NCBI GenBank assembly: GCA_964036195.1
Contig: OZ038450.1
Location: forward strand, 8,930,701 to 8,994,700
Reading direction: 5' to 3'
Length of the DNA stretch: 64,000 nt
Source: Sphaerolaimus hirsutus
Taxonomy: Eukaryota; Nematoda; Chromadorea; Monhysterida; Sphaerolaimidae
Below the pieces are notes generated by a model. That model was not told where the DNA came from and searched no databases. It saw only the letters and a list, made by a program, of their open reading frames with translations. This document shows positions 17,997-61,197 of this stretch, one piece after another. The first letter of the stretch is position 1. Each line of letters begins with the position of its first letter. The translations under genes and the position numbers were made by a program.

Positions 17997-18529
17997 CATA
18001 GTTGTTAAAACGTATCTACGTTTACTCAAAAAGTACGTACCTATACTCGAGTACTGAGTAAATACGTTTACGTATACTTTAAAAAAGTACCTGTACTCGC
18101 TTTTACGTATGCTTTTTGAAAGTACTCGAGTACAGAAAACGTATTTCAGATAGGTTTTGTTATAGGCTTTTTCAAGGGATAGATGGGGGAAAAGGGAGAA
18201 AAAAAGCGAAAAATAGGGAAAAAGTCTATATATACTATAGTCTATATATATTAGTCTAAAATGGCAAATGACACATGAACTAGTGAATTTGAGGGTAAAA
18301 ATGGTCAAAAGGTACAAAAATTAGTAATTTTGAGCGGAAATTGGGACAAAATTCCTCCAAAATACTCACTTTTACGTTTTCAGGGTGGAAAAGTATTTTA
18401 CTCATGTTGACTCTTGAGTAAAAGTTAAAAAAAATTACTTGACGTTTTCTGTACTCAGAGTGTGAGTAAAAAGAAATACTTTACATTTACGTATACTTTG
18501 AAAAAAGTTCAGTACTTTTAACAACTCTG
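17997..18529. mobile_element. hAT-like MITE, ACTCGAG family, 8-bp TSD
   Basis: The left end CATAGTTGTTAAAA pairs with the right end TTTTAACAACTCTG. The 8-bp direct repeat CCGGAGTG flanks it exactly (17989-17996 and 18530-18537). The interior is built of TACGTTTACTC, AGTACTCGAGTA and TACTTT words that are often self-complementary. Confidence 0.9.
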
Positions 18530-18756
18530 CCGGAGTGCAGTCGCGCAGTGCGCGGAAATTCGTCGAAGACTGTCCATGTGACAATGATAGATGTTTTTGC
18601 GTGCTGCTACATGAACACGAGAACTCACGCGGTTTGTTGTGATTCCCCATTCGCATGTTCCTGGGCAAAACCGATAAATATATGTAAATACAATGTTGAA
18701 CGTTCGCTGCTCATGGCATAAAAGAACGTGATCTAGGCCAAACAGACTACAGCGAA

Positions 18757-19215
18757 TACCGATTTCCTCGAATTACCCCCCGGGGGGTTTATTTTTTCAG
18801 AGTGGAAATTTTGCGGAGGGGTATTTCGAGGGGGTGGGTTATTATTTCGCCAGAATTTTTTTGAAATCCCAGTATATACTAAATTGTTGTTTGCAACCGT
18901 CAAAAAATGCAACAAAAACCGTCATGTATAATACTCTATAGACCTATAACATAACACAGTCATTGGTTTTAACGTGTATTCTGCGTTTCCCAGATTACTA
19001 ACAGCAGCTTTTGTCACTTACATTCTCTATACACTATATTTGGGGGAGGGGTATTTCGAGTGGGGGTTTATAAATTCATAGTGTCCATTTTGAGGGGGGT
19101 ATTTCGAGTGGGGGTTTATAAATTCATAGTGTCCATTTTGAGGTGGGTATTTTGAGGGGGGTATTTCGAGGGTGGGTATTTGGAGGGGAAGGGGGTATTT
19201 CGAGGAAATACGGTA
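18757..19215. mobile_element. CCGTATT-type MITE
   Basis: Ends TACCGATTTCCTCGAA and TTTCGAGGAAATACGGTA are inverted. The interior includes a direct duplication of GTATTTCGAGTGGGGG text and several GGGGTATTTCGAGG words. Confidence 0.8.
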
Positions 19216-19417
19216 GTTATCAACCGAAATTTCAAAACTGTTGGGAAACTCGCAAATCAGCTTTGAACGAAGTTGAGTTTACCGGAATAGGTCATTTTTA
19301 ATCTCCGTCAGCAGTAGTTGACGGACTCAAATGCTTTCAACGCTGTGTACAGCGATTTCGAAGAAGTTCAAATCATTAAGCCGGAATTAGAGCTCAGCGT
19401 CGATTCGACGTAAAATG

Positions 19418-20690
19418 ACGACGACGTAAAATAACGTCGTAAAATTAATTACACAAGTGTGGATCATGCTACGGGTCTACAATTTTCTAAGGATAATATA
19501 TGAATCAATACCTTAATCGTGTCCAATACTGAGTGTTATCAGCCACAACTAGAGCGAATTGAAAAATTCATTTTTATCATTTCACGTCATCATTTTACGT
19601 CAGGGACCTAACTTTACATTTCACGTCAACGGTTGCTTGCAATCATTGACGCGAAATGTAAAGTTAGTTCCCTGACGTAAAATGATGACGTGAAATGATA
19701 AAAATTGAATTTTTCAATTCGCTCTAGTTGTGGCTGATAACACTCAGTATTGCACATGATTAAGGTATTGATTCATATATTATCCTTAGAAAATTGTAGA
19801 CCCGTAACATGATCCAGAGTTGCGAAAGTGTATTTACACTTACCCGAAATACTTGGGTAAATGGGTATTTATATTTACACTTACACTTACACTTTCATAA
19901 AATACCCATACACTTTTTTTACACTTTCCTGAGCAAAATACCCGGATACAGAAAGTGTATTTTTTTCTTTCAAATGGCCCTATTTTATGCTTTTGAAAAA
20001 GCATAAAATAGGGTCATGTACAAAAAATAACTGCACAGTGCACACATGTAGTTATGCAGTGAATGTAGAAAATATGGCAAATGTACAAACTGGCCTTTGA
20101 TCTCCAACCTTTGATCAGTACTCATGGCATTCTACAGTTTCATAATACTTTTGTAAAAAGGACCATAGAAAGATCAATGGAAATTCACCAGCTGGACACA
20201 AAGTCGACTGGCTTTTGCATTGACATTTGCTGCATGTCCATTCTTGCATTTAAACTGTGTGTATAGCATTGCTTAATCAGTAAAATATCAACACTGAAAA
20301 AGTGTCACTATTAAGGAACTTCATACCACTACAGTATTTGTGCCAGTACGAAATTTTTCATAAAAGGCAGTAAAATGTGAAATAATGCATGAAAATGACA
20401 AATAAATTTATCTAAAGGTGAAAACAGTGGTGTTTTCTAATGCTCAACAGTGAGAGCTCTTTCTAAAGAAAATTTTTACACTTTCCTAGGTATTTTTAAA
20501 ATACCTTACACTTTTGGTATCCATACTCAAAATTTGGAAAGTGTATTTACACTTACACTTACACTTTCCAAAAATACCGGTATTTTAACAACTCTGGCAT
20601 GATCCACACTCGTGTAATTAATTTTACGACGTCATTTTACGTCATCATTTTACGTCGAATCGACGCTGAGCTCTAATTCCGGCTTAATGA
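19418..20690. mobile_element. Foldback element split by a hAT-like insertion
   Basis: The sequence AGCCGGAATTAGAGCTCAGC near 19380-19420 recurs inverted as GCTGAGCTCTAATTCCGGCT at the right end. Long arms contain TTTTACGTCATCATTTTACG words. The right arm is interrupted by the element at 19815-20596. Confidence 0.85.
19815..20596. mobile_element. hAT-like MITE nested in a foldback, 8-bp TSD
   Basis: Ends CAGAGTTG and CAACTCTG are perfect inverted partners. Flanks are ACATGATC and GCATGATC, an 8-bp duplication with one change; the intact left arm of the host foldback shows GCATGATC was the original site. The interior near the ends carries repeated TTTACACTTACAC words. Confidence 0.9.
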
Positions 20691-21029
20691 AGGTTAAAAA
20701 AATTTACAGGCAGGAAAGTGAAACGCTTCCGAGCATTGGCGGATATTCACTGACGGATTGACGGATAAATATTTTTTAGATGAACAAATGAACTGAGAGA
20801 ACGCAGATAATAAAAAAACGGTCGAAGGCAGCAATGTACAGAAATTAGGTAGGTATACTGAACTGACAGAACGCTATACATTTAAGCCTAGCGTATTTTG
20901 ATGAATAAAGTTAATTGCTAAACTGTGCAACGAATTCACCGAACGCAAGAGCTATTTGATGTAATAAGAAGAATATAAAATGTGTGTTCTTTTATTCGGA
21001 TGTGATACGGTACAGTTCATTGTAACGTG

Positions 21030-21275
21030 TATACTTGGCGTACATGATACTCTGCCCTCGCACTAATTTATGTTTCACGTTGGAAGCGTGCCAATGACGA
21101 TAAAGCATGCGATTTTTGTATAAAAGATCAAAAAATGATTCTTGTCAATAAGTCAACGTATAGCGTTAACGGAGATGATTTTTTTCAACTTTGTATGAAA
21201 ATCGCATGCGTAAAAAATAGTTGGCACGCTTCCAGCGGGAACCACGCGTGCAGGGTGAAAAGTAACTGGAGTATA
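21030..21275. mobile_element. TATACT-ended MITE, copy 1
   Basis: About 245 bases that recur at 36232-36476. Both carry GGAAGCGTGCCAA near the left and TTGGCACGCTTCC near the right as inverted repeats, with TATACT and AGTATA-like ends. A related element in a Lnk intron is at 51079-51275. Confidence 0.8.
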
Positions 21276-21310
21276 TGTAGGGTCAGTGGACTACACGCAA
21301 GAAGGCTCAC

Positions 21311-21713: not shown

Positions 21714-22039
21714 GGACGCGCTTGCGCTATTGTCTTGTTCTAACATGTAGTTTATTAGCGACTAGAGAATATAGTTAATCTCACTGGATGCGTCATGCCG
21801 CGACGACACGTTATTTCTGCAATTAAACATAAAAACATCTGTTAGACGTGAATTAGGCGCTGAACGCAATGTCATAAATGAGCGAATCGCAATCACACTA
21901 ATCGTGCACTACGCGAGCATTCGATCGGTCTATTTTGATGTGTAAGCTAGTAATGAAATAGATAGAAAAAACCATGATGAGGATATTACAAACTGGACCT
22001 AAATATGAATCCCCCGTGTTTTTCACGCAGTCTCGTTGC

Positions 22040-22833
22040 CAACGATGGAAAAAAACAGAACTTGAACACAGAAACTCATTGAGTTTCTGTGTTTTTGTTT
22101 TACATTACTCAAATGAGTTTTTTTTTGGAGAACACAGAAACACGGAAACACAGAAAAGTTTTTTGAGTTTTGAGTCTTTTCAGCGAAGTGGTTGGACACA
22201 TTGTCAGAATGCACATGAATTCAGTTAAACTAAACAAGATAAGATATGCATGTATAGCATGTAAATATGTATTTTACATAATGTATTCATATTTTATGAT
22301 GGAACAAAAAATAAATTAAAGATGGCATGCACATCTCCTGGTGGACATGTTTAAATATATAGTTGTAGTTCAAATCAATCCTGTAGTCTTCCATACAGTG
22401 CACATCCATTGAAGAATTTTGGAGTACTGCATAAATTGTAGTTTGTGAGCATTTTGTTGATGCTGGTGCTGTGATGTGGGTGGGTGTCCTCATTGAGGAC
22501 ATTTTTATGGACTTTTTCGACACTTGAATGAATACACATATTTATGTTATGTGGGGTTAAAACATGTGCAAAACCAATATTTTATAAGAAAACCGCTGTT
22601 TCAACATCAAAATGCTGTAAATCAGAATTTTTTGGGGGAAAACTCGAGTTTTTCTGACAAAAACTCGAGTTTTTTAGAAAAAAAACTCAAAAAACTCGAG
22701 TTTTAACAAAAAACACAGAAATAAAAACAGAGTTACTCAAGTTTTTTTATTATAAAAAACTCAAAACACAGGTATTCTTTTATGAAAAACTCAAAACACA
22801 GAAAGTGTTTTTTGGAGAACTTACCCATCGTTG
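22040..22833. mobile_element. hAT-like MITE, CTCGAGTTTT family, 8-bp TSD
   Basis: Ends CAACGATGG and CCATCGTTG are inverted, and CTCGTTGC flanks both sides exactly. Subterminal zones repeat ACACAGAAACTCA, AAACTCGAGTTTT and AAACTCAAAACACAG words. The central part contains unrelated AT-rich sequence. Confidence 0.9.
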
Positions 22834-23070: not shown

Positions 23071-23543
23071 ATGGTCACGGATAGTGATGTAAAAGCGCCA
23101 TGGCGCTGGCGCCTGGCACTAGCGCCAAGGCAAAAAGCGCCATGGCGCTTTTGGCGCTTGGCGCTATTTACCTGTGGCGCCATTGGCGCTTGGCGCTATG
23201 CCTATGAAAAGCGCCATGGCGCTTTTGGCGCTTGGCGCTATTTTTGGCCGGCGCCAGGAACAAAATGCCTGGCGCTGGCGCTTGGCGCTAGCGCCAAAGC
23301 AAAAAGCGCCATGGCGCTTCTGGCGCTTGGCGCCATTTTGCTCTGGCGCCATTGGCGCTTGGCGCTAAGGGTCGGAAAAGCGCCATGGCGCTTTTGGCGC
23401 TTGGCGCCAAAGTTCTGGCGCTTTTCGCATCACTAGTCACGGACCAGAAACAAGTGAATGTGCAGCTGCAGAAACGGGTGGAGGAGGCGGGTACACGACT
23501 TGCGAAATGTCGAGAATTTATCAAGAATTTGCTCATCCAACAG
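23071..23543 (+). pseudogene. Coiled-coil exon interrupted by a hAT-like MITE
   Basis: Without the insertion an acceptor AAATATGCAG is followed by ATGGTCACGGACCAGAAAC and a continuous frame to donor CAGGTTTGA. It encodes a heptad-like helix (VQLQKRVEEAG, then CREFIKNLLIQQ). The element at 23082-23435 plus its 8-bp duplication adds 362 bases, which breaks the frame; reading through meets a stop at the element's last CACTAG. Either this allele is inactivated, or a splice site inside the element is used. It could also be a degenerate exon copy. Other exons of this gene were not identified with confidence. Confidence 0.55.
23082..23435. mobile_element. hAT-like MITE, GGCGCC family, complete, 8-bp TSD
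   Basis: Ends TAGTGATGTAAAAGCGCC and GGCGCTTTTCGCATCACTA are inverted, and GTCACGGA is duplicated exactly at 23074-23081 and 23436-23443. The 354-base interior is almost entirely GGCGCTTGGCGC and GCGCCATGGCGC words. Long open frames rich in Ala, Trp and Arg on both strands follow from this repeat. Confidence 0.95.
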
Positions 23544-25915: not shown

Positions 25916-26332
25916 GGATACAAAAGCATAAAAGTTGAATATGATACAATAAGATGTGGATACACATGACACTTTTCAGTATATTTTACATAACATTTGA
26001 CACTTCATAGGGTATTTTACATGACACATGACATCTTACAGGGTATTTTACACTTTACAGGGTATTTTACACTTTACAGGGTCTTTTACAGGATCTGGGA
26101 CTACCCCCAGATCCTATAATATGTTGTGTAAAATGTCAAATGTCATGCAAAGTGTCAAATATCATGAAGAATGTCATAAAAATGGCAAGAAAAAGATTTT
26201 TCGACACTGCTTGACCTTTAACATTATTGTAAATACAGGGCATTTTACAGGGTCTGGTGTCACTTCCACAAGAGATCAAGTGAAATGGGAAAAAATAAAA
26301 GAAAAGTAATTTGACAAATTGCAAGTTAAGAG

Positions 26333-26959
26333 TAAGGTTGGGAACCCGACCCGCCCGACCCAGACCCGACAATTTCACCTGACAACATTGGATTTTGTTG
26401 ATCAGTTAGAAATGATGTCGATTGTTGTGATGCTTTTCCTATGTTTGAATTACAGGCAGGCAGGCAGCACGTATTTTCATCTGTGGACAGTTTAACTCTG
26501 TAAAATTTCATGTAAATTGTAAACAGTCAAGTAAAATGTCATGGAAAAAGCCGTGTCCTGTAAAAACATCAAATTTTACATTTTACATGACCTTTACTTT
26601 TTACAAGGCATCTTACAAGCTGTGGGAGCACCCCCTGAACATGGATAAGTCAATTTTATGAGAAAACACTGTTTTTACATTGAAACACTGCTTCTGGGTA
26701 CCGACTCAGTTTTTGTGCAAAAACTTGTGGTTTACGAAAATGAGTTTTCACAGAAAGAAAAAAACAGTAATAAAGACAGAGTTACTCAAGTTTTTTTTTG
26801 CGAAAAACTCAAAGCACAGGTATTCATTTTTGAAAAACTCAAAACACAGAAAGTGTTCATTTTTAAAAACTTTCCTATCGTTGAGCCGACCCGACCCGAA
26901 CGTTTTTTGAACCGACACCCGAAACCCGAACTTGTCCATTCTTTAAATTCCAAACTCTA
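26333..26959. mobile_element. hAT-like MITE with CCCGAC words, 8-bp TSD
   Basis: GTTAAGAG is duplicated exactly on both sides (26325-26332 and 26960-26967). Ends TAAGGTTGGGAA and TTCCAAACTCTA pair with mismatches. Subterminal zones repeat ACCCGACCCG and CCCGAACCCGA-like words. A CCCTGTAAAATG-type MITE fragment is nested around 26498-26635, next to ACTCAAAACACAG words shared with 22040-22833. Confidence 0.8.
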
Positions 26960-27089
26960 GTTAAGAGTAAAATCAAACGTTAAGAAAGAAGTGGCAAATG
27001 ACTCTTACCTTACTCTTACCTTTTTTACTCTTAAGAAATGGCAAATACCTTACTCTTCATTTTTTACTGCACTCTTACTTTGCCGTTAG

Positions 27090-27351
27090 TAGTGATGTAA
27101 AGGCACCGGGGCACCGGTGCCCCGGTGCTGGGCACCGAAGGGCACCAGCACCGGTGCTGGTGCGGTGCCATTGCAATCTTCAGGGGTGCCATGCCGGTGC
27201 CGGTGCCATTTTTTCCAAAAGGCACCGGTGCCGGTGCGGTGCGGTGCCATTTTCTGGCCGGTGCCCCAGGGTGCCAGGTGCCCTTTTCATGCGTTGGCAA
27301 AGGTGCCGGTGCGGTGCGGTGCCATTTTTCCCGGTGCCTTTAACATCACTA
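27090..27351. mobile_element. hAT-like MITE filled with GGCACC words, 8-bp TSD
   Basis: Ends TAGTGATGTAAAGGCACC and GGTGCCTTTAACATCACTA are inverted. GCCGTTAG is duplicated exactly on both sides. The terminal octamer is the same as in the GGCGCC element at 23082-23435, but the interior word is GGCACCGGTGCC instead. Confidence 0.95.
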
Positions 27352-28391: not shown

Positions 28392-29162
28392 CACAGTTGC
28401 GAAAACGTATTTACGTTTACTCGTAAATTCGTATACTCAAGTACCGAGTAAATACGTTTAAGATTCCTCCAATAAAGTACATGTAGTAGTTTTTTAGTAC
28501 TCTTTTTGAAGGTATTTGAGTACAAAAGAACGTATTTTTGATGCTGATTCACTACATTTTAGAAAAAAATATTGAACTCGTAGTAAACTGTGTTTACATC
28601 AAGTCCAGCAGCCTATTTATCAATTGACAGGTGAGAGTGACGAGACACCAAATATCTTGCTATGGGAATATGTAGATGTAATTTTGGGGGAATATAGTGA
28701 CTTCCCCACTACTATACTCTTACAGTGAGGTGAGGAGGGTCTAGCAATGGTTGCCGAATGTGCAAAAAATTGAAATTTTTGCAGTCTGAAATTGGTTCAC
28801 CATAACAGGTGAATCTCTAAATCTTCGAATGCCATTTTGCCATACCTTCAGCTAAGTGGGTTAGGAAGCTAAAATTTGGGGATGTAACGAACATCCATGC
28901 TACTGTAGCCAACACACCTAAAGTGTGATGTGAGTCACTGCATATAAGGCATTTTTAAACGGTTTTGGTGTCCACATCAAATGGAGAACCCATTCGCATT
29001 TTATAATAAGGCAGGTAAGCGATCCCTGCTTTTCGATTTTACAGCACCATACTGCACTGTCACAAATTTTACTTTAGGTTTTAGGTACTCAGTAAGTAAA
29101 TTAAACATATACTTTATGTTTATGTATACTTTGAAAAACCTTGAGTACTTTTAACAACTCCG
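28392..29162. mobile_element. hAT-like MITE, ACTCGAG family, 8-bp TSD
   Basis: Ends CACAGTTGCG and AACAACTCCG are diverged forms of the family TIR. Flanks ATGCGCAC and ATGCACAC match at seven of eight positions. Subterminal TACGTTTACTC and GAGTACTTTTAAC words match the copies at 17997-18529 and 42372-42854, while the centre is unrelated. Confidence 0.85.
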
Positions 29163-29865: not shown

Positions 29866-30046
29866 GGAAGTCCCTGACCCTGTAAAATGTCAAATGTCAT
29901 GCAAAGTGTCAAAAGTCATGTAAAATGCCCTGCAAAATGGCAATCGAGTTGCTATTTTGCAGGGCATTTTACAGTACTTTTGACACTTTGCATGACATTT
30001 GACATTTCACATGACATTTTACAGGGTCTGGGACTGGCACCAGCTG
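29866..30046. mobile_element. CCCTGTAAAATG-type hairpin MITE
   Basis: AGTCCCTGACCCTGTAAAATG at the left pairs with CATTTTACAGGGTCTGGGACT at the right. The arms are made of ATGTCAAATGTCATG words and meet at a short GGCAATCGAGTTGC core. Confidence 0.85.
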
Positions 30047-31943: not shown

Positions 31944-32335
31944 CCCAGGTTTAGATGTGTGATGGGCTTAGATGTGTGGTGGGCAGAATTAGATGTGTGG
32001 TGGGCAGAATTAGATGTGAGGTGGACAGAATTAGATGTGTGGTGGGCAGAATGAGATGTGGGCCTGGTCTAGATGTGTGATGGGCTTAGATGTGTGGTGG
32101 GTAGAATTAGATTTGTGGTGGGTAGAATTAGATGTGTGGTGGGCATAATTAGTTGTGTGGTGGGCAGAATTAGATGTGTGGTGGGCAGAATTACATGTGT
32201 GGTGGGCAGAATGAGATGTGGGCCTGGTCTAGATGTGTGATGGGCTTAGATGTGTGATGGGCTTAGATGTGTGGTGGGTAGCATTAGATGTGGTCCTGGT
32301 GTAGATGTGTGATGGGTTTAGATGTATAATAGGCT
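31944..32335. repeat. 21-bp minisatellite
   Basis: Tandem variants of AGATGTGTGGTGGGCAGAATT continue for about 390 bases. A variant block with GTGGGCCTGGTCTAGATG recurs about 160 bases apart, so a higher-order unit is present. Confidence 0.9.
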
Positions 32336-33299
32336 TCAGTTGCTCAGATGTCTCTGGGTGCTCTTTGGTACCATATTCATGTGATTAATCCATGCAGTGA
32401 GGCTGATCAAATCACAATCAACCAGGGCACCCCATCTATTGACCAATCGATTTTCATCCCCAAAAATGGTTGCAAAGATTGAAAATTTTGTCATCACAAA
32501 ATAACTGTGTAAACACCAAACTAATGAGCAGGTCATTGTACAGTACATGTTATTGGTACAAACAATGTTATATGCTTTAAAAAATGATAAGTATTTCAAA
32601 ATTAATGTAGGTTTACATGTCTTATGTACTGTATAAATGTTCAACATAATTGAACAATTGACAAAATGTACTCCATTCACTTACTTGCATTGATTGTGCC
32701 CACTGCCCAGGTTCTACCAAAGCCACAAAGCATGCCGCTGACTCGCATGCATGCTTGTAATATTCATTTGTCATGACAGTAATATTGGAAACTCAGGCCA
32801 ACGTGACCCAAACCAGATATTTCACACATTTTGGAACCCAATACACAACCTCAACTATTTTGAACTGATACACCACACCTGAACCCAAACATTTTGAAAT
32901 TCCCTATATTGGGAGTGATGTGATGTCACATACTTTGGATGGTATCGTGAGCACATTGGCCTGATTTTATACCTATCTGTAGTACACTCATGCTTTCACA
33001 GATAAAAATTTTAAATTTTACTGATGGCACCTTGGCGCTATTTATGGTACCATCAAAAACAATGGCGACATGCACCAATTGGTGCCAGCAAAAATGGCGC
33101 CAAACACCAATTGCGCCATGGCACCATTCAAAATAAGTGCATCAGAGTATTCAAAATAACAGTGCTGGAGAACACCGGGCCAAGCGTCAATTGTGCCATG
33201 GCGACTTTTAGTATTGGACTTGTCGACTTTTAGTATTGGACGCCTCATTTTATATGTAACGTAGCGCTATGGCGTCATTCAAACACTACCTTGCTGCGA
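32336..33299. other. No gene seen; decayed GGCGCC-type remnant
   Basis: A minus-strand 114-codon open frame (32680-32336) has no codon bias. At 33017-33200 there are decayed GGCACC and GGCGCC words, and at 33210-33245 GGACTTGTCGACTTTTAG text related to 60546-61197. Confidence 0.45.
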
Positions 33300-35138: not shown

Positions 35139-35423
35139 GTTTGGACAAGTGCCTATGCCGTCCCACATCTGAACCCGTCCCACATCCCGGCCCATAAATT
35201 GGATGCCTGTCATATTTGATGCGTATTCCTAGCATTTCTGGTGGTTAATGGATGCAAAAAAATGTTGATGATGAAAAAGTGCTACATTATGAGCCACTTT
35301 CTGACTCGGTGATTTCGCAGGTCAAAGTTGTACTCAATAACACTGACTGCACTCAATAGTTGTCAACTGTCATGTTTTAACACATGTGGTGTCAAATTGC
35401 CTTCAAACACTCTCACATGTTAT

Positions 35424-36175
35424 AACGATGGCAAACCCTCCGAAAAAAAGTATTTAAATTTTTAAGTGTTTTTTCCTCAAATTAATTTTCGAATTTCTAA
35501 TTTAATTTTCAAATTTTTGAATTTTCGAATCTTTTTGGGCAATTTTCGAATTTTTAAGGGTAATTGTCGAATTTTTGAATCTTTTTCGGCAATTTTCGAA
35601 TTTTTGGTGTAATTTTCGGATTTTTTACATACTTTTTATATATTTAACGGTCCAAATCGGCCATGAAATGGCCGAGTTATTTAGCTTCAAAGTCAACTAG
35701 CCAGATCAGCCATGTAAAATTAACACCTTTTTATAGACCCCCCTTCTTGGGACAGGGGGACAATTCAAGGTAACAAAACAATTTGGTTGACGTGCAACAG
35801 AATGGGGCGACACAAAGTCTGGTGGACCCACCCCCTAAAATGCCTTCCCCGATTCCAGCTATGGGCCCGCCACGCCACCGATGCCATTTCAACGTTCATT
35901 CACGTTGCGTTTTTCATTTCGATAGACTTTTTCAGACGCACCGCATATCAATTATCAATCGATTTAGCACAGAACCTAAGAATGTGTTTTATGTCCTTGA
36001 ATTCCCTGACAAATTTGAAAACTATATTCGAATTTTTGAATTTTCGAATTTTTTATATAAAAAAAATCGATTTTTAAGTGCTTTTTCCAGTGGTGGAAAA
36101 AAATTCAAAGATTCCGAAAAAATTCGAAAATTGAAAAATATTTTCGAATTTTCGAATCTTTTTTTTGCCATCGTT
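35424..36175. mobile_element. TTCGAA-rich MITE, AACGATGGCAAA ends
   Basis: AACGATGGCAAA at the left pairs with TTTGCCATCGTT at the right. Subterminal zones repeat AATTTTCGAATTTTTGAA words. The centre holds a GC-richer unrelated segment. No clear target-site duplication was found. Confidence 0.75.
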
Positions 36176-36231
36176 AGTTAGATTAGATGGATTACCTTGT
36201 TTCATCATGAGTTTTTTGAAATTCCCTACAT

Positions 36232-36935: not shown

Positions 36936-37266
36936 TACCGTATTTGCTTGAATAGTTCCCCCCTTGAATAATTCCCCCCTCGAATAATCCCCCCCCTGTA
37001 AGACGAGTGAGGAAATAATAATTCCCCCTCGAATAATCCCCCCTTTAAAGATTTGATTAATTTTTTCTACCTAATTTTAACAAAAATGGCACGTTATTGT
37101 GTTTATAAGGCATGTTTCGAGAAATGAGTTGATGGAAACATGCTTGAAAATTTTGACGAAATAATAATTCACCCCTTGAATAATTCCCCCCCTCGAATAG
37201 TTCCCCCCTCAAAAATGTCTGACGAAATAATAATCCCCCAGGGGGATTATTCAAGCTAATACGGTA
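36936..37266. mobile_element. CCGTATT-type MITE, complete
   Basis: TACCGTATTTGCTTGAATAG pairs with TTATTCAAGCTAATACGGTA. The interior is CCTCGAATAATCCCC and TTGAATAATTCCC words. The partial copy at the window start matches this subtype. Confidence 0.85.
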
Positions 37267-37509: not shown

Positions 37510-37693
37510 TACCGTATTTACTAGAATAATTCCACCGGGAATGATTTTTTCGTCAGATCGTTTCAAAGGGGGAATTACTCAAGTGGAGGAATTATTTTCT
37601 GATACTCGTCTTACAGGGGAAATCATTCAAGTGGGGGGATTATTCAAATGGGGGAATTATTGGAGTAAGGGAAGTAATCGAGTAAATACGGTA
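37510..37693. mobile_element. CCGTATT-type MITE, short copy
   Basis: TACCGTATTTACTAGAATAA pairs with CGAGTAAATACGGTA. The interior has GGGGGAATTATT words. Confidence 0.8.
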
Positions 37694-39298: not shown

Positions 39299-39483
39299 TG
39301 GGGGCAGTCCCAGACCCTGTAAAATGCCCCGTAAAATGTCAAATGTCACGCAAAGTGTCAAAATTCACGTAAAATACCCTGCAAAATGGCAATCGAGTTC
39401 TGCAGGGCATTTTACATGACTTTTGACACTTTGCGTGACATTTGACATTTTACAGGACATTTCACAGGGTCTGGGACTGGCAC
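39299..39483. mobile_element. CCCTGTAAAATG-type hairpin MITE
   Basis: GGGGGCAGTCCCAGACCCTG and CAGGGTCTGGGACTGGCACC are inverted ends around ATGTCAAATGTC words. The unit lies immediately beside the minus-strand exon at 39484. Confidence 0.85.
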
Positions 39484-42371: not shown

Positions 42372-42854
42372 CACAGTTGTTAATGCGTATTTACTTCCAC
42401 TCAAAAACTACGCATACTCGAGTACTGAGTAAATACGGAAATGCATACTTTGAAAATAGTATTTGTACGCTTACTTTTTGAGAGTACTCGAGTATGGTAG
42501 AGTAATTTTTGTGAGTACAGAAAGAGTATTTTTGCCATTTGAGACCCCCTGTTTTTCATTAAGACATATACTTATTTATAGAAAGAAAACAGATTTTTGT
42601 TGTCAAGGGTAAACATTCATAATGCTTTTTCTAGAAAGAAACTGTAATTCTACTTGCCCTTATGACTTCCTGAGGAAAAAATACTCGCATTTACGCTTTC
42701 TGGGAAAAGTCATTTTCTCATTCACTCGCGAGTAAAAGTAAATTATTTTTACTTTATGCTTTCTGTACTCGGGGCAGGGGGGGGGGTGAGTAAAAAGGAA
42801 ATACTTTACGCACACGCATACTTTGAAAAAAGTTCGATACGTTTAACAACACTG
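42372..42854. mobile_element. hAT-like MITE, ACTCGAG family
   Basis: Ends CACAGTTGTTAA and TTAACAACACTG are diverged inverted partners. Flanks CCATGCTA and CCGTGCCA agree at six of eight positions, consistent with an old 8-bp duplication. Interior words are ACTCGAGTACTGAGTAAATA and TACTTTTTGAGAG. Confidence 0.75.
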
Positions 42855-45136: not shown

Positions 45137-45565
45137 TACCGTATTACCTCGAATTAACCCCCCCCTTGAATTGACCCCCCCCCCTCGAAATACCCCCCCT
45201 AAATTTCGGCTGAGGAAATAATAAACCCCCCCCTCGAAATACCCCCCCTAAAACTGAGTGTAACGTGAACGTACATGACAAATACCGCAGTTTGTGTTCT
45301 GTACAATGCAGAACACACGTTAAAACTGATGATTAAGTGACGTTAGGGAAGGGTTTTGTGTATATACAGTTATAGCTGCCTATAAACACACATACATCTA
45401 TGTAATTGTTCGATTTTTCTACGTCTGCGTATGGGGAATTTTCAAAAATTTCTGGCGAAATAATAGACCCCCCCCTCGAATAAACCCCCCCCTCGAATTA
45501 TCCCCCCCTCAAATTTTGCTGGCGAAATAATAAACCCCCTGGGGGTATTTCGAGGTAATACGGTA
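45137..45565. mobile_element. CCGTATT-type MITE, complete
   Basis: TACCGTATTACCTCGAATTA and TATTTCGAGGTAATACGGTA are near-perfect inverted ends with TA flanks. The interior has at least six CCTCGAAATACCCCC-like words. Confidence 0.9.
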
Positions 45566-51000: not shown

Positions 51001-54000
51001 GCACTCGGCCGCTGAGCGTGCAGCCACCACGTATTCCATCCCATTGTCTGCCTGAATCGGACAAACAGTTTATATTTACTATGCTCGGCGGACAGCAAGC
51101 ACACCTAGTATGAAAACCTACCATAATTTTATGAATAAAATCTTGTGATAATTTTCGTAATTAATTGTTCCATAGTAAAAACGAATATTATTATGTAAAA
51201 AGTGTATAATTTTTGGTTCATTATTCAGGTGGGATTTGGTAGGTTTCCCTACTAAGTGTGATGTCCGCCGAGTATAAATATCAGTAGCTTTTCAACGTTA
51301 TAAAGAAGGTCACAAAGAACGATGATCAAAAAAATACCTTCAGCACAAAGGCGTATTCGTGATCGGGAGTTTCAAGTTGCGTAGTCCGTCTGGCTTCGTT
51401 GATAAGAATGCAGAACAATCCGGCGCACGGTTTAGAAGCCTGTGACGTGCCATGTAACCAGTAGCTGGAAAACATGGTAAATACACCAGGGGCCAGTCCC
51501 AGACCCTGTAAAATGTCAACGTACGTTTGCCATTTTACAGGGCATTTTACATGTCGTTTGACATTTTGCTTGACATTTGCCATTTTACAGGGTATGGGTT
51601 GGCACCAGTACCCTAGAGACAAAAACAACCCACCTTTTGCGGAGCATAAAACTCGAGCAAATGACCACCAATGGTCTTGACCATGCACATCCTGCACTGC
51701 TGCAACTGTCTCCCATCCAAATCCCCGCAGCCGGCGGCAAACAACAAGCCAGTAGACTCTTTCACCACCTGCACCACGGTTTTGGCGTGGGTGACGCCGT
51801 TGGCAGTGGCGCCGCCGTGGCCGACCGCGTGCACGGCCATGGTGGACAGAGACTTGCGAAGGCAGCGCACCGCCCGGTCGATGCTGCGGCAAAGTGGCGG
51901 CAGGTTTTTTTAGGCTGACGTTTTATGGGGTTGATTTGGGGTTGTGTGGTTCGGGTCTGACTTTCTTCGATCCATTGTAAATAATGGAATTTTTATTCAG
52001 TTGGACAATTTTTTATTATAAAAAAAAAAATTGAGCCACCAATCAAATCTTTTGTGTGCTTATATCTTTCTGGCACTGTTGCGACAATTATCGTCAAAGT
52101 CATTGGAAGTCCTTTGAAAGGCTTAATTGCAATGAGAAATAAAATTGACAAAAAAGTTCTTATTTGCTCGATCTCCTTGAAACGTTTTTTTAGTTCAAAA
52201 GAATGTACAATTTTCGTCACTGTAACTAATGAGGTCGAAATAGACAGAAGACTTCAAAAGATATTTTTCAGTTGACCGTCTGTCATCTAGAGTGCAACAC
52301 AAACGAACAAGACCCATCACAAAACTGCAGTCCACCAACCTCCGATCCCTGCGCGTGTTGTGACTCTCCACAGGCGCGGTGGCGCCGGCGTCGCAGTTGC
52401 GCTGCACCAGCTGCTGCGCGCCGCCGCCGCGACCGGCCCACGCGTGCCGCATCTCCTTGAGCGACGGAAATCGGCGCAGGAATCGCGGCCGTCGCTGCTT
52501 CTTTGCCGCGTCAGCGGCGCCGCCGACGCGCCCGTAGCTCGGCCTGCGCAGCGAGTTGCTGCCGGTGGAGCCGTCCATTTGCGACTGCGACCCGTGCGCT
52601 AAGCCCATGGGAGGCATGGATCGTCGAGAGTCGCGGTCGTGCGGGTCGATGCCGGGTTCACCTGCAAACGAATGCAGCAAAACTACCTATATGTTCCAGA
52701 GACAGTTCGAATTCCCGGTCAAATGCTTACATGGTGGCAGTCCCAAGCCCTGTAAAGTGTAAAGTAAAGTGTCAAATGTAAAGTCAAATGCAAAGTAAAC
52801 TGTCAATTGTCATGCAAAGTTCAGTAATAAAATCTTTTCTTTTTTGTTTTGATTGACACTTTACTTTGCATTTGACTTTACATTTGACACATTACTTTAC
52901 ACTTTACAAGGCTTGGGACTGTCCCATGGTATGGTATTCGACCATGTAAACATTTCATGTCAAGTCATAAATTATCATGTCAATTATCATGTCAAGTCAC
53001 AGTATTATCATGTCAAGTCACAAATTTTGGACAAACGTTCGAATTCCAGGTCAACGAGTGTGTAGATACTTCGTAGGACCAGTCAAGTGACAGCTTAAGT
53101 GCAAAATTAGTTTGAAATTTGTCAATGGACAGGGCATTTAGTGCGGTATGAGTGAGATTGATATAGCCGATCGTAAATATTTTCTCGGTGCCAACTCCGT
53201 AAGTGGAGAAGTACAAAAGTGGCAAGTAATTTTAGAAGTGACAGGTGAAGAGACATATAAAATTTGTAATTTGACTTTTGACTTAACACTTATATTTATA
53301 TGGAATTTTTATTTGACTTTTTACTTGCCTCTTCACTCGGCACTTCTCAAGTTAATTGCCACTTATGACTTCTACACTTACATAATAGACACGCCACAAA
53401 AAACCGCATGCTAATTTCGAAAAATAACGAGTGTCCAAAACATACCAACACTGCCCTCCCCCAACACAGCTGTGCAGTCATTAACCAACTCCTCATCAGC
53501 CACCCCAGAATCAGCCCTATCACAAGTAGCCAACCGCCGCCAGGCACACTCCGCACTGGCGGCGGCGGCACGGGCAAACAGCGCCAATGCGGCCGCGCGC
53601 CACGCCTCGTCCATGGGCTCGGAGGTGGACGGGCCGGCGGCGCCGCGCCCGTGGTGCTGCCACAGGAGGCGGGCGAAGCGGATGCCGGCGGCGCCGCCCA
53701 CGCTGACGCACAATGATGCCACCGACCCGTCCAGTTCCACTGCGAGCGAGTACGGGCGAATGGGTGTGACGAGGGGTGAGGTTCGGGAAATTGGGCATAT
53801 TGGGCATGTAAAATGCATGTGTTTTTATGGAGCCACCTCACCTCGGGACTGGGGTTTTATTCTATGGAAGTAATTTTTTGGCTGTAGCCCCAACCCCAAC
53901 ACACTTGAACAGCATTAAAGTTGGACAAGGTAATTACAACAAAATGGGAAGACGCTAAACTGTGGTGGATCTGCTGCAGCATCCACTTTATATATGAATA

Positions 54001-55280: not shown

Positions 55281-55283
<3 letters not shown>

Positions 55284-56672: not shown

Positions 56673-56816
56673 CACACACTAGTTTACCGGCTCAGTAAAC
56701 TCGGATTTGACAGATAGTAGTTGACAGATACCTCATTCTGGTAAACTCAAATGCATTCAACGTCGATGTCAGAGTTTACCAAATCCGAGTTTACCGAGCA
56801 GGTAAACTAGTGTGTG
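56673..56816. mobile_element. Palindromic MITE, CACACTAGTTTACC ends
   Basis: CACACTAGTTTACC, then GGCTCAGTAAACTCGGATTT, is mirrored by AAATCCGAGTTTACCGAGC and GGTAAACTAGTGTG. The core contains the CAGATAGTAGTTGACAGA text shared with the AACTCAT family. Confidence 0.85.
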
Positions 56817-57907
56817 CCGCACCATCACCGACGCAAAATCTCAATAAATAAATATTCGATTCTGGCAAAAATCCGCAAAAAAACAACAACGTAACACTTC
56901 ATTGAACCGTTGAAAAATTACTTCCCGTGGGGATTACTAGGCAATGCAAAGGCAATCCCGTGGGTCTGAAAGTATTAGCTGCAAGTTGTTGTACAAATAA
57001 ATGACTGACACAAAAATGAGAATCTTTTTAGTGTCCCGGAAAAATATCGAGTCCACATATCCGAGAGTGATCCCGCCTTGGAAGCCGTGAAAGCGAAGCA
57101 GTACTATTTGAGTCAATCGAAGTGCAATTCATTCATAAATGCGGTAAATTTTCAACGAAAAAATAGGAACCTCTTTTCCATCAAATCGGTAAAACTGGAA
57201 TGAATGTGAATTGAACTTCACGCAACTTTCTAACCCTGTTTTCGGAAATGATAACCTAAAAGGGGAAGCGACGGATGCAAACTTTCGGACCCGCTCTATT
57301 GACAGTCCCATGGCACTCACTTTCCAAGCATCGGGGCATCACACGGCCGCTGAGCGAGTGAAACGCCTTATAACTCCGAGGGCAAATATTTGAGCAACAT
57401 AAAACGGCGCAGGCATCCTGGCGAATTTCCGCCGGAAATGGCTCATATTGTGAAAGCCTATACGCTATAAAATGAGCCATTCACAAATTCAGTTCAATTC
57501 ACACAAATGCCGCTTCATTCACAAAGTCATCGTGTTACAACAGCCTTATTTTGGGTGTCAGTCTGTCGGATGGAATTTTTGAAGAACATTGGAATTTTAC
57601 AGGATATGCTTACAGCTATGACTGTAAGAGAGAATGTGGAAAGTACTTTTCATATTTACATCCAACACAATATTCACGGGGTAAATATTTAAAGGCAAAT
57701 CAGAAATGCGCTGTTGCATGTGCCAGCTGAGCAGAAATTGAAGGTCAACTGCTATCGGCGCTTTCCATTCATAACAGTCAACAGTCAACACAAGCCAAAC
57801 TTAAATACGAGACACCACGAATGGCACTTTTATCTAGCCACTTTAAAATCAGTTTGCAAAAACTTCGCATGCAAGCACACATTTCCTCCCCACCAAACAA
57901 TTCGCCC
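56817..57907. other. No gene seen
   Basis: Spacer without supported exons or delimited repeats. Confidence 0.45.
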
Positions 57908-58125
57908 ACACACGCTAATTGACATCGTAAATTTGTGTCAACTCAATGTCAACTAAATAATATAACACATTTTTAAAGCATCACACTTTAATGAGAAACA
58001 GAAACAATGAACACTAAGTGTCATGATGTAAAATTAACTATGCTCTGTCAGATAAAAAAGTTGAAACCACATAAATCGGTAAAATTTTGTTGACACGAAT
58101 CCAGTTGACACCCAGCGTGTGTGGC
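57908..58125. mobile_element. Inverted-repeat element, CACACACGCT ends
   Basis: CCACACACGCTAATTGACA pairs with GTTGACACCCAGCGTGTGTGG. Internal GTGTCAACTCAATGTCAACT words repeat near the left end. Confidence 0.7.
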
Positions 58126-58522
58126 GTTGTCTGACTGCATGTCTTTATAAACACTTCGTCTCAACAAACACAGAAATTAAATGTTATCCTCCAGTTGCCA
58201 ACCCTATAGAGTTCTAAGCATTATACACAGTATATCAGACAAGTTCAGTACTTGGCGTCAGGTTACGGGTGAACATCTCATGAATGTGGAACCATGGGAT
58301 AGCATTGTAAGTGGTGATTTACAAAAAAAACACTATCCATAATTCACTCATGTAAAATCACCTTCACCAAACACTCATTATGGAGTAATCATTAAAAGCT
58401 ATAAAATCCTTGAAGAAGACACAGTGGATACGTTGAGTGATTCTTTGCACATCACAACCATGTCAAAGCACATTTAATGGATTTCATATGCTGCAAAAAC
58501 ATATCATGGATCATTATGCTAA

Positions 58523-58642
58523 TCACTGTGCTTTGTTGTTTTTGCTTTTCTGCTTCATCTTTGCCTTCATAGCATTGGCCCTCATGTTTGCATGTTCTTT
58601 TATTGGTTCAAAATCAACACCCCATTCATCTGTGCTAGAATC
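58523..58642 (-). CDS. Secreted Cys-rich protein, exon 3 with stop
   Basis: After acceptor CATTTCACACAG the frame encodes DSSTDEWGVDFEPIKEHANM and a Lys/Gln/Asn-rich tail, then TGA. The plus-strand 86-codon open frame here (58437-58697) is a shadow. Confidence 0.7.
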   Translation of the reverse strand, partial: DSSTDEWGVDFEPIKEHANMRANAMKAKMKQKSKNNKAQ

Positions 58643-59976
58643 CTGTGTGAAATGTGGAAAAAGAGACATAATGCACATATTAAGACCAATGATATGATTA
58701 TGACCTTATGATGGGGGTGAAAGACGATGCCATATTACAACAGGAAAATCAGCAATAACTATATAAAAACGTATAAATGCATTCATTCATTTATATGGGC
58801 TGTCTTGTAGGACTTTTAGACTTTCCTACTTGCTTGCTCCAAATAAAGTTTTGGCAATTGTTTGGTCATACAAAGACGTTCACAAAATCAAAGTATATAT
58901 ACCAAGCCAATAATTGTCCCCACTTTTGAAATTATACTATTTTATCTACCTTGAATGCTGTGACAGAACTCTGGCCTCGATTATGCCCCTGGTTGTAATA
59001 GATCTCAACCCTATTCTTGCCACTTTTATGCAGATGCACCAGTACCTTCCTTTTCATCTTCCTCTTAGTAAATTTTATGGCTACATTTAGTCCATCGCTC
59101 CTGCGTAATTTAAATATGATTAAAGGATTTGTTTGAAATTCAATAGAACAGGAATGAATAATAACACACTTTTCATAAGCTTCAGAGCAGAAGCTGTCAC
59201 AAAATACATTTGAGCATGCCTCCAGCCTAGACAGAAAGTTTGTGCCCGTAGTTGTATCGTTGCACCTGACAAGCATTGGGATGAGTGACATTTAGCACAA
59301 TACATTGGGCTCAAACGGGATCTCGAATCCCGAAAATTCCCGGGGTTCAGCGGTCCCGATCCCCACACACCAATCCCGATCCCAAAATCTGAAACCCAAT
59401 CCCAATCCGGAAAATATTCAAATCCTGATCCCGAAAAACTTCCCCAAACCTGTATCCGATCCCGGAAAATTTGAGCAAAAGATTAAAAATGATAGAAAGG
59501 ACCGTTTGCACTGAAAAATGAACCGATATATCCAGTGCGCATTGTAATCTCACCGATGTCAAATTCAAATGTGTTATTAGGCCTTTTTGTGTAGAATTAG
59601 AGCAAAACCCCTCTATACCAGAACATTCGCCAAACTCCCGATACCGAGACTTGGATCCCGGGATAATCCCAATCCCGAAAACTGAAAAAAAACGATCCCG
59701 ATTCCGATGCAGTGCAATGCCGATCCCGAAAATTCAAAATAACCTATCCGGATCTCGAAAAGTCAAACCCGTTTGGACCCTAACCACACAAATAAAAAAT
59801 TCTCAGAAATTATAACTCTATCATTCTCAAATGAAAACTTACTGTTCACTGACATAAAAACTGGGAGTATCCGAGGATTCATCTTCATCAGGTTCATCAT
59901 TCAGCTCCAATGAATTTGACATGCACACAATGCAAAATAGAAGAAATGAGACACTTAAAATATACCTGCAAAGCAT
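58523..59976 (-). CDS. Secreted Cys-rich, Lys-rich protein, three exons, complete
   Basis: Exons 59976-59843, 59265-58950 and 58642-58523 join with matching phases (2, then 0) into 189 codons plus TGA. Residues 1-22 (MLCRYILSVSFLLFCIVC) form a signal peptide. An acidic segment (NDEPDEDESSDTPS) follows, then a six-Cys block (CNDTTTG, EACSNVFCDSFCSEAYEKC, HSC), a basic middle (KRKMKRKVLVHLHKSGK) and a Lys-rich C-terminus (KAKMKQKSKNNKAQ). Donors are GTAAGT and GTAGAT, acceptors GCTTGTCAG and TTCACACAG. Six Cys suggest three disulfides. Codon third positions are AT-rich, unlike Lnk. The family is not recognised; an extracellular or matrix-binding role is only a guess. A repeat is inserted in intron 1. 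Confidence 0.72.
58950..59265 (-). CDS. Secreted Cys-rich protein, exon 2
   Basis: The frame is open for 105 codons after acceptor CAATGCTTGTCAG and holds all six Cys and the basic segment. It ends GQSSVTAFK at donor GTAGAT in phase 0. Confidence 0.75.
59305..59783. mobile_element. MITE filled with CCCGATCCCGAAA words
   Basis: TTGGGCTCAAACGGG at the left pairs with CCCGTTTGGACCCTAA at the right. Between them are a dozen or so ATCCCGAAAA and AATCCCGAT words at both ends and an unrelated AT-rich centre. It lies in intron 1 of the secreted-protein gene. No target-site duplication was evident. Confidence 0.8.
59843..59976 (-). CDS. Secreted Cys-rich protein, exon 1
   Basis: Start ATG at 59976, signal peptide and acidic propeptide-like segment, canonical donor GTAAGT in phase 2. 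An internal TTTGCAG six bases after the ATG could act as an acceptor if transcription starts further up. Confidence 0.7.
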
Positions 59977-60545
59977 AATGCGGCTATAGCGAACCAACCA
60001 AACAAAAATTGGACATTTGATTAGGTAGAAACTGGCTAAAAAGTAGAAAATGCAGTGTGTTCAATTAACCTGGAGATCATCTTTTTTTTTCAGCGCGAAT
60101 TGCGATCGCTTTGAACACAAACAGCAGCTGGAAATTCAGTTGATTGTGCGGCATTAGAAACCACCTTAGCGCACTTTATAGGTCGCGATTCCCTCGCGTG
60201 TATTGTTGGCATGGTACCAAACGCCAAAAGGATATACAGCCAATATACCCATACATCATGATGAGTATTACCGACGGTGTCCAACCAATATTATCCTAAT
60301 CACATGTGGCGCGGCCTATAACAAAGCTGATCACAAGCTGCTCTGCTTATTTGAAATGTTAAACCATTTTAAACCTATGAAGGATTAATGAACCTATATT
60401 TATTCATGCGGGGTAACAAATCTCAAGTTAATTTTTTGATCAAGCTGTGCCAATAGATGAAAATAGCTTATATGTATGAATGCAATAATCGCATACTAAA
60501 TGTATCCAACGCGGGGCTTATTTACCATGACTGAAAGTGGGAAAC
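59977..60545. other. No gene seen; upstream of the secreted-protein gene
   Basis: AT-rich DNA that should contain the promoter of the minus-strand gene starting at 59976. No core element was identified with confidence. Confidence 0.4.
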
Positions 60546-61197
60546 AATTGAGGTGTCTTATTCTAAAAGTCGACAAGTGCACAAAATGCGATTTTGAGTA
60601 AATCACATTTTAAGTTTCAGGCCCAATTCCAGGCCTGTGGTGCGTGTCCAATTTGGCTCTCTCATGCTTTCCATTAAGTTCCATATATTGACAATAAAGT
60701 GTCAAGTTTTCAGCCCCGCTCTCAACGTATATGTGAAAAATGAGGTGTCCATAAAATTCCATTCGGTCAGAGCAAAACTGTTTTGGGGAAGGGAACTGGA
60801 CTTGTCGCCTTCTTCCACGCGAGAACGTTTTTGTTCCCGGCGCCGATGGAGCTGCCTTATGGGAAAATTATGGACTTGTCGCCGTTTAGAAATAGGTGTC
60901 CACAGTGGACTTATCACATTTCTTGCGTTTCTTCCCATAACAAAAGGATGCGGAGGATAGACTTGTCGACTTTTAGCCCAAAACTAAGTGGACTTGTCGA
61001 CTTCTTGCCCAATTTTTTTACATTTTTCCCTAAAAAATGTCAAATTTGGCACTATGCCATATGGGCATGTGAGTTCAAATTTTTTTTATGTAAAATGCTG
61101 AAAAATGTGCGGGAGTAGCCCCAGATAACGTTACCGTGCCTAACTGGAAATTTTCATATTTTGGACTTGTCGACTTTTAGAATTGGACGCCTCAATT
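60546..61197. mobile_element. MITE with GACTTGTCGAC words
   Basis: AATTGAGGTGTCTTATTCTA with AAAAGTCGACAAGT is mirrored by ACTTGTCGACTTTTAGAATT and GGACGCCTCAATT. GGACTTGTCG(A/C)C and GTGTCCA words recur several times in the interior. Smaller relatives lie at 33210-33245 and 46080-46270. Confidence 0.8.

Follow-up and report, generated by a model that had tools for sequence, protein, structure and literature searches.

Word-array elements in the window

The 64-kb stretch of DNA analyzed here, referred to as the window, contains at least seven short elements that combine inverted ends, an 8-bp target duplication, and an interior made up of a reiterated short word. An earlier note had described this layout of terminal inverted repeats (TIRs) around reiterated-word interiors, and the design is real in the main. 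All five of the 8-bp duplications that it named are found as direct repeats around elements; an exact copy of CCCGATCCCGAAA, which it also listed, is not found anywhere in the window. The elements are given below in order of position, with the start positions of the two flanking repeats where these were located and with the highest count among shuffles in parentheses after each word count.

1802..3186: family A, long form, 1385 bp; GCGCCA/TGGCGC words in both end zones; duplication GACGCAAT; GCGCCA 39 times (11)
17997..18529: family C1; end CAGAGTTGTTAAAA; half-site word TACTC/GAGTA; duplication CCGGAGTG at 17989/18530; hexamer excess weak at 7 (7), 8-mer self-similarity clear; homologous to the ends of the complete hAT copy
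19815..20596: family C2; end CAGAGTTG; TACACTT class; duplication ACATGATC/GCATGATC with one mismatch; AAGTGT 14 times (7); in the two ends, TACACTT 13 times and TACGCTT or TACGTTT 0 times
22040..22833: family D; end CAACGATGG; words AAACTC/AACTCGAGTTTT and CACAGAAA; duplication CTCGTTGC at 22032/22834; AAACTC 13 times (10)
23082..23435: family A, 354-bp form; word array over almost the whole length; duplication GTCACGGA at 23074/23436; GCGCCA 31 times (8)
26333..26959: family E; ends TAAGGTTGGGAA/TAGAGTTTGGAA; word ACCCGA; duplication GTTAAGAG at 26325/26960; broken by other sequence; the hexamer that occurs most often differs from this word
27090..27351: family B; end TAGTGATGTAAA, also that of A; word GGCACC/CCGGTGCC; duplication GCCGTTAG at 27082/27352; GGCACC 16 times and CGGTGC 16 times (5)
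28392..29162: degraded C1 copy; right end assigned by eye
29872..30032, also 39309-39475 and 51498-51598: family I; ends CCCAGACCCTGTAAAATG; word TGTAAAATGTCA
35423..36176: family G; end TAACGATGGCAAA, word ATTTTCGAA; ends read by eye; matching 8-bp duplication not seen; copies elsewhere in the genome have PF05699 and intact duplications
42372..42854: degraded C1 copy; right end assigned by eye
45138..45564: family J; ends ACCGTATT, word CTCGAAATACCCCC; duplication TA at most; other window copies at 11444-11866, 16219-16680, 36937-37265, 37511-37692, and 62794-63178
59305..59782: family F1; end TAGGGTTCAAAC, degraded; word ATCCCG 8 times (8); clear duplication not found
60545..61198: family K; ends CAATTGAGG, word GACTTGTCGAC; 8-bp duplication looked for, none found

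A blind scan of the window for inverted ends with an 8-bp duplication returned 28 hits, including several nested or simple-repeat matches that are not elements, compared with 1 and 3 hits in two block-shuffled controls, and it yielded the additional elements at 1802-3186 and 19815-20596. The scans for inverted ends used ends of 12-14 bp; loose pairing is common because the word arrays stand in both orientations. Word excess was assessed in nine window elements, each against 100 dinucleotide shuffles. The share of 8-mers occurring at least three times is above every shuffle in all nine, and the count of the top hexamer is above every shuffle in five (A twice, B, C2, and D); in the other four, C1, E, F1, and G, it no more than equals the highest shuffle. 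In a wider test set, 41 of 43 rows lie above all shuffles by 8-mer self-similarity, and the excess is absent from C1 in L058 and C2 in L053.

The top words of several long elements are partly foreign because elements of other families are nested inside them, as is the case for C1 in L018, L005, and L012, C2 in L027, B in L063, F2 in L062, and K9 in L064. An apparent piece of transposase belonging to family B was dropped on these grounds, as the hit in L063 is an H element (4196-5255) nested in the B element (2919-5336). The insert that interrupts E (26333-26959) includes what appears by eye to be a D right end.

hAT affiliation

As one part of the overall explanation developed below, most elements of this word-array type are likely to be hAT transposons of the non-autonomous kind; they are not mutually unrelated. 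The hAT C-terminal dimerization domain (PF05699) lies within matching-ended elements of five families in the 348-Mb genome (C1, C2, F2, G, and H); it was not found in families A, B, D, and E. An 8-bp duplication, perfect or with one mismatch, is present in at least one copy each of A, B, C1, C2, D, E, F1, F2, G, and H, and a short motif is reiterated near both ends, as in hAT subterminal repeats. C1 and C2 have a common end, 60% of the last exon in common, and different words, and are the closest of ten pairs. The families had been called unrelated, which is wrong for most of them: TAGTGATGTAAA is the end of both A and B, at least four end types, CAGAGTTG, AACGATGG, TAGGGTTCAAAC, and TAGGGTTGGGAA, are each combined with at least two words, and the hAT domain is shared. 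On account of these shared ends and the shared domain, the hAT families are not accepted as a case of unrelated lineages that converged independently.

A complete C1 hAT copy of 6,006 bp, with the duplication CGCCAAGG and its own transposase, has a word array at its ends, which speaks for the earlier note in one of its proposed checks. Its words are restricted to ~250 bp from either end, with 20 and 15 word-like motifs in the end bins versus 0-3 per 250 bp between them. The BED zinc finger of this copy is split between exons and scores 22.6 bits against a cut-off of 20.6. The C1 words may resemble the ends of Tol2. The finger is known here from one class of one family, C1. A zinc-pattern search across the retrieved loci gave no convincing BED finger. 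When the last exon of C1 was used as a protein query, neither of two candidates scored, and the best E in a PDB sequence search with the BED exons was 0.17.

Conserved words in family A

In family A, words are held over drifting spacers. Units taken by rule (12 of 37) show a pairwise difference of 4.2% in word columns versus 31.8% in spacer columns, and with a fifth element (13 of 43) these values are 4.1% and 32.1%; the words are favored on two counts, as the rule admits only units that begin with an exact word and the consensus defines the word mask. Nine units picked by hand from 37 anchor rows give 3.1% for words and 30.4% for spacers. Array length had been expected to vary among copies with the same TIR, and the outcome is mixed. 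For the 354-bp form, which has 4074 first-look candidates genome-wide, 40 were scored, and among the 30 best-scoring copies, a sample chosen by similarity, both ends are recognized in 29, all of which are 345-355 bp long with one common interior. Other elements with these ends and this word measure 261, 972, 1213, 1277, and 1385 bp.

Concerted word switches

Homologous elements with the CAGAGTTG end carry TACACTT, TACGCTT, or TACGTTT at almost all of their word sites, on a conserved backbone. A pattern scan gives 4,569 word triplets, and among the first 100 listed 87 are uniform compared with 15.5 expected and with 30 or fewer in 20,000 shuffles of those 100; the uniform triplets are not independent, because they go back to a few ancestral switches and some elements are matched twice. 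In each of the three classes the triplet pattern picks up the right end, and in the TACGTTT class it picks up the left end too, which is why some elements are double-counted. In the comparison of the classes at both ends, a loose pattern misgrouped three C1 copies with the TACGTTT left ends, and most of the eight "mix" left rows of this comparison are C1. Between the TACACTT and TACGCTT class consensus sequences, 11 of 86 word columns differ versus 3 of 159 backbone columns, a comparison that is unaffected by the misgrouping and in which the intermediate L072 is counted as TACGCTT on the left. The right-end word AAGTGTA that precedes the triplet is identical in both classes.

L072 and L073 are intermediates between C2 word classes. 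Single TACATTT sites occur within TACGTTT triplets, and L074 and L075, left ends from a subfamily in which one site is odd, are among the three GT-GT-GC triplets. L074, L075, L084, L085, and L087 are left-end matches whose elements lie beyond the fetched stretch and are therefore uninformative on the rest of the element. A second switch, TACTC/TACGC, is seen in the sister family C1, again with intermediates, and ATCCCG/ATATCG/GTCCCG at the TAGGGTTCAAAC end is probably a third of the same sort. No description of a concerted word switch on one scaffold turned up in searches of open-licence papers.

Comparison with known transposons

Repeated words near hAT ends are already known as subterminal repeats bound by transposase, and the words held over drifting spacers in family A and the words switching in concert go beyond this. 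According to a paper on Tgf2, subterminal repeats are a defining feature of hAT elements, Tgf2 has 17 and 18 repeats near its ends, and the BED finger is required to bind the end (PMC4890040). Tol2 and Tgf2 are like the elements here in their 8-bp duplication, short ends, and many repeats near both ends (PMC4890040), but here the repeats occupy much of short elements and come in switched versions on one scaffold. Ac/Ds has AAACGG hexamers near its ends and cooperative transposase binding (PMC3260210), and the word of family H, CGGAAA/AAACGG, includes this hexamer. Unlike the elements here, Ac/Ds has other ends, a far lower repeat density, and, as far as the accessible text goes, a single word family-wide. 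According to the same source, elements in maize may fail to move despite AAACGG repeats, and some that lack these repeats are mobile (PMC3260210).

Hermes has short repeats bound by BED fingers, with a palindromic pair bound cooperatively (PMC10368747). Its AAGT/AAGC sites, unlike those here, are sparse, precisely phased, and on one side, and most inner sites were not seen bound; binding is reported at the first few left-end repeats only, with none at the right-end repeats, and auxiliary binding further inward is deemed unlikely (PMC10368747). The Hermes and maize observations speak for a limited part played by many sites and count against the array reading below. Among CGGBP-type hAT proteins, whose BED and Hermes DNA-binding domains are related, the motifs differ greatly and comprise both GCGC and AT-rich ones; in four out of four hAT-encoded cases the motif fits the ends of the element that encodes the protein (PMC8097297). 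That comparison is across species and host genes, and the excerpted text does not describe an array switch on one scaffold. Together, these two sources indicate that hAT BED fingers bind such repeats with diverse specificities (PMC10368747, PMC8097297). Galileo and Tetris foldback elements likewise have tandem repeats within their ends, which in Galileo hold extra transposase (THAP) sites (PMC4079207), but Galileo belongs to the P superfamily and Tetris to no assigned one, Tetris repeats are ~220 bp, and the inverted repeats are long.

Probable origin and maintenance of the arrays

Judging from sequence comparison, the arrays are likely candidate transposase-binding sites that have grown by local duplication, been held by selection, and been rewritten upon a shift in specificity, with the reiterated word probably acting as a transposase docking site. 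We infer that the BED finger binds the word and that selection lies behind the pattern, and likewise infer the sequence of events. The words would be subterminal repeats bound by the transposase BED zinc finger; local duplication of multi-word units would enlarge the arrays, and once the coding part is lost, the arrays would form much of the MITE. Words may be kept while spacers drift because the best-sited elements move best. When a transposase lineage shifts its DNA-binding specificity, its dependants would swap the word at almost all sites by way of mixed-state elements, and the TIRs and remaining scaffold would pass through the switch unchanged, being read by other parts of the enzyme. Selection for transposase-binding arrays, one of two processes suggested earlier, is in keeping with the conserved words, end-confined words, and concerted switches, all of them indirect indications.

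A joint reading of the switches, to which we give an even chance, is that sister hAT subfamilies have the same ends and scaffold and, within one genome, have had nearly all of around a dozen dispersed binding words replaced in concert. The ends would track the C-terminal part of the transposase and the word would be fast-evolving, probably with the BED finger, such that MITE populations split into separately mobilized classes and the arrays record specificity changes.

It is unlikely that the arrays reflect neutral expansion, in which slippage or gap repair multiplies end-near sequence and the words are the copied unit, without selection. Family A contains duplicated multi-word units with tandem periods of 169, 74, and 67 bp, which fit such expansion, as do the identical word runs in L005 and the fixed interior of the 354-bp A subfamily. 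However, even drift would be expected, yet words differ ~8x less than spacers, and scattered words have changed together across conserved intervening sequence, which block copying does not do. Repair slippage, the other process suggested earlier, is plausible as a growth step given the tandem multi-word units but alone explains neither conservation nor switching.

It is quite improbable that the words serve a host factor (an architectural or silencing protein), DNA shape, or hairpins instead of transposase binding. Such roles would suit the fact that most words are palindromic or pair into palindromes (GCGCCATGGCGC, TACTCGAGTA, GTGTATTTACAC) and the similar layout in I, J, and K, families that may lie outside hAT. 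A shared host factor, however, would give neither family-specific words nor a switch within a family, while hairpins could be strong without one identical word recurring from site to site, and repetition in the TTACACTTACACTT stretches is direct. Such repeats are also known to be bound by hAT transposases (PMC10368747, PMC3260210, PMC4890040). A mutational switch, with CpG decay or motif-directed deamination hitting the word everywhere, is very unlikely: TACGCTT to TACACTT is a CpG transition and the lone TACATTT sites in TACGTTT triplets resemble CpG decay, but the other-strand product TATGCTT is absent from the class consensus, 12 word CpGs are missing while 5 unambiguous backbone CpGs are kept (a sixth falls in a consensus column filled by the analyst), and TACGCTT/TACGTTT and TACTC/TACGC are not CpG changes.

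If the arrays are indeed transposase-binding sites rewritten with specificity, a joint change of transposase and dispersed sites becomes countable in terms of the order of change, the sites needed, and whether the finger comes first, as this single genome, with its thousands of matches, contains several scaffold states side by side with intermediates of mixed state. Orphan MITEs could also be matched to transposases by word instead of by end.

Additional word-array families

Among the 29 end pairs listed for family J, the 8-bp target duplication of hAT elements was not found, and most read T/ACCG...CGGT/A, a TA duplication at most. The CCTCGAAATACCCCC family is probably not hAT because its duplication seems to be TA at most. 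Families I, J, and K, which may not be hAT, have a layout similar to that of the hAT word arrays. The same design is also present outside 17997..61197, at 1802-3186, 11444-11866, and 62794-63178, and elsewhere in the genome.

Word arrays in and beyond the window

In an assembly of 348 Mb and 762 contigs, a blind scan of the window for inverted ends with an 8-bp duplication gave 28 matches, not all of them real elements; each of two block-shuffled controls gave far fewer (1 and 3). Letters stand for element families, and words are the short motifs reiterated inside.

Elements in the window with inverted ends and an 8-bp duplication
1802-3186, family A
17997-18529, family C1
19815-20596, family C2 (one mismatch in the duplication)
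22040-22833, family D
23082-23435, family A
26333-26959, family E
27090-27351, family B

The C2 element sits inserted in a long inverted-repeat element (19373-20690) with 51-bp, 98% complementary arms and reiterated GACGTAAAATGA/TCATTTTACGTC words.

An earlier note had described interiors made of reiterated words. This is borne out in 9/9 window elements tested by the share of 8-mers present at least three times, which exceeds all 100 dinucleotide shuffles, but by top-hexamer count in only 5/9. The highest counts are GCGCCA (31 and 39), GGCACC and CGGTGC (16 each), AAGTGT (14) and AAACTC (13). By the same 8-mer self-similarity measure, 41 of the 43 tabulated elements, from the window and elsewhere, lie above their shuffles; window pieces not covered by any listed element score a median of 0.005 (n = 165), and their maximum of 0.30 is due to unlisted repeats among them.

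The layout is also found outside the window, both at random genomic places and at other loci. The random sample covered 40 kb at four places, of 100 drawn beforehand, and its scan gave 10 rows, five of which were set aside by eye as nested or simple-repeat matches. The top word exceeded all 50 shuffles in 4/5 retained elements: one of family A (L068), one with ends TAGGGTGGCAGA and word ACGGTA (L067), one with ends CAGGGTTGGCAAA and word TACAAA (L066) and, by a narrow excess (5 versus 4), one of family H (L069). No top word above 50 shuffles was present in a 187-bp palindromic element in L067.

Transposases of the word-bearing families

Judged by encoded domains in C1, C2, F2, G and H, most families carrying word arrays here are hAT transposons; for A, B, D and E, the ends and the duplications are the sole basis of the hAT assignment. 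A profile search for PF05699, the hAT C-terminal dimerisation domain, gave 28 matches in the genome among 108 candidates. In C2, F2, G and H the domain lies within elements whose ends match and whose duplications are perfect or have one mismatch. The complete C1 copy is 6,006 bp long, with ends CAGAGTTGTTAA and CAGAGTTGTTAG and the duplication CGCCAAGG on both sides. It encodes an exon-split transposase with the dimerisation domain and an N-terminal BED zinc finger, the latter above the Pfam cut-off when exons are joined by hand at apparent GT/AG. Its first 250 bp contain 20 word-like motifs and the 250-bp bin starting at 5,750 contains 15; the bins between have 0-3 each. This copy (L065+L059, G000 contig C3) seems, from a translation judged by eye, to have landed within the reading frame of a mariner-like transposase. 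The family H word CGGAAA/AAACGG (L031, L051, L064 and others) includes the hexamer bound by maize Ac transposase, which may be chance or may reflect a similar finger.

Words replaced in concert

Family C2, with ends CAGAGTTG, provides the first case of a word switch. The words read GTGTATTTACAC and TTACACTTACACTTACACTT in the window copy and in L064, GCGTATTTACGC and TTACGCTTACGCTTACGCTT in L018, and ACGTATTTACGT and TTACGTTTACGTTTACGTTT in L060 and L027; these variants occupy the same sites on both palindrome arms, and the intervening sequence is conserved. A pattern of three neighbouring word sites permitting any mixture of TACACTT, TACGCTT and TACGTTT had 4,569 exact matches genome-wide, and its reversed control had 0. 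The 100 triplets at the head of the listing, which runs by position along contig C1, comprised 16 all TACACTT, 26 all TACGCTT, 45 all TACGTTT and 13 mixed; they represent fewer than 100 elements, as the pattern fits both ends of some TACGTTT elements. Independent sites would give 15.5 uniform triplets in 100, and none of 20,000 shuffles gave more than 30. The uniform triplets stem from a few ancestral switches carried by numerous copies and are not a large set of independent events.

Eighteen matches were examined in context (6/13 mixed, 12/87 uniform); five were left-end matches whose element lay outside the retrieved stretch, and nine had an exact left end within it, with perfect duplications in 6/9. 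Words beyond the triplet match its class in the examined elements. Four TACACTT elements have 9-12 copies of that word each and 0 of TACGCTT or TACGTTT, while one TACGCTT and one TACGTTT element each have 11 of their own word and 0 of the other two. L080-L082, with TACGCTT triplets and the left end outside the stretch, contain TACGCTT 4-6 times and other words at most once. Outside the triplet, two elements with one odd site in it (L070, L071) contain TACACTT 10-11 times and lack TACGCTT, and intermediates are found in L072 (three TACACTT, six TACGCTT, one TACGTTT) and L073 (five TACACTT, two TACGCTT).

The TACACTT and TACGCTT consensuses differ at 11 of 86 word columns and 3 of 159 backbone columns; one word preceding the right-end triplet is identical in both. 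CpG decay is unlikely to have produced the switch, since one class lacks 12 word CpGs present in the other, yet the 5 unambiguous backbone CpGs are kept, and the other-strand decay product is absent from the class consensus.

Family C1 shares the end type of C2. Its left ends are of a TACTC class in four window copies, L005 and L018, and of a TACGC class in the complete copy (L065), L012, L019, L025, L045 and a partial copy in L022. The two classes have a common scaffold, and L041, L067 and L087 contain elements of mixed state. The copies in the window therefore differ in word class from the complete copy that bears a transposase. In a third case, few copies, informally compared, place ATCCCG, ATATCG and GTCCCG classes with the end TAGGGTTCAAAC. 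The end TAGTGATG occurs with GCGCCA or GGCACC, CAACGATGG and TAACGATGG with AACTCGAGTTTT or TTTTCGAA, and TAGGGTTGGGAA with ACCCGA or GAACCG. Two palindromic window elements (56673-56816 and about 62100-62210) both start CACACACTAGTTT, one going on with GTTTACC words and the other with TGGCGACATGTCGCCA; they are perhaps another pair with the same end and a different word.

Words conserved within family A

Family A is young and abundant. Both ends were recognised in 29 of its 30 best copies; these 29 measure 345-355 bp, and 24 of them have perfect duplications. Variation in array length among copies with the same ends, which the earlier note took as a test of its idea, is not seen within the 354-bp subfamily, whose interior is fixed in these 29 similarity-chosen copies, an outcome that by the note's own terms speaks against the idea, but the ends and words of A also occur in elements of 261, 972, 1213, 1277 and 1385 bp. 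The array unit of about 74 bp consists of AAAAGCGCCATGGCGCTTTTGGCGCTTGGCGCTA, a spacer, TGGCGCCATTGGCGCTTGGCGC and a spacer. Pairwise difference was 4.2% at word and 31.8% at spacer positions in 12 units taken by rule from 37 anchors in four elements, where rule and word mask bias somewhat toward word conservation. Nine hand-picked, gap-free units gave 3.1% and 30.4%, with 5/41 variable columns in words and 25/43 in spacers. The words are the best-conserved part of the unit despite containing CpG. Three 354-bp copies (L002, L004, L007; G000 contig C7, ~1322039-1324151), spaced about 0.88 kb, apparently lie in a tandemly duplicated segment.

What ends and words may follow

The best explanation, and a probable one, is that word arrays are putative hAT transposase-binding subterminal repeats that are rewritten when specificity shifts. 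Four papers (PMC10368747, PMC8097297, PMC3260210, PMC4890040) describe hAT BED fingers as binding such repeats, and related fingers as having very different specificities, with motifs matching their own element's ends. The same papers report that the outermost left-end repeats of Hermes were the only ones seen bound, and that in maize the hexamer is not sufficient and not always required. C1 and C2, families with common ends but different words, show 60% identity in the last exon, which makes them the closest among ten pairs compared; the ends thus seem, on these sequence comparisons, to go with the C-terminal portion of the transposase. The words would follow something faster-evolving, most likely the BED finger, a link we infer with the finger known from one class of one family.

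A similar layout occurs in families I, J and K. In family J (CTCGAAATACCCCC) the duplicated target seems to be TA; no duplication was visible at the flanks of K, and none was assignable at the copies of I examined. Galileo, a P-type transposon, is likewise reported to have repeated transposase sites (PMC4079207).

Other repeats in the window

A minisatellite at 31948-32336 (Tandem Repeats Finder; unit of about 21 bp, TTAGATGTGTGGTGGGCAGAA, 12.4 copies) has no obvious transposon ends. The stretch 14001-16000 is very AT-rich (GC 0.24) and contains a 109-bp tandem repeat at 14707-14944.
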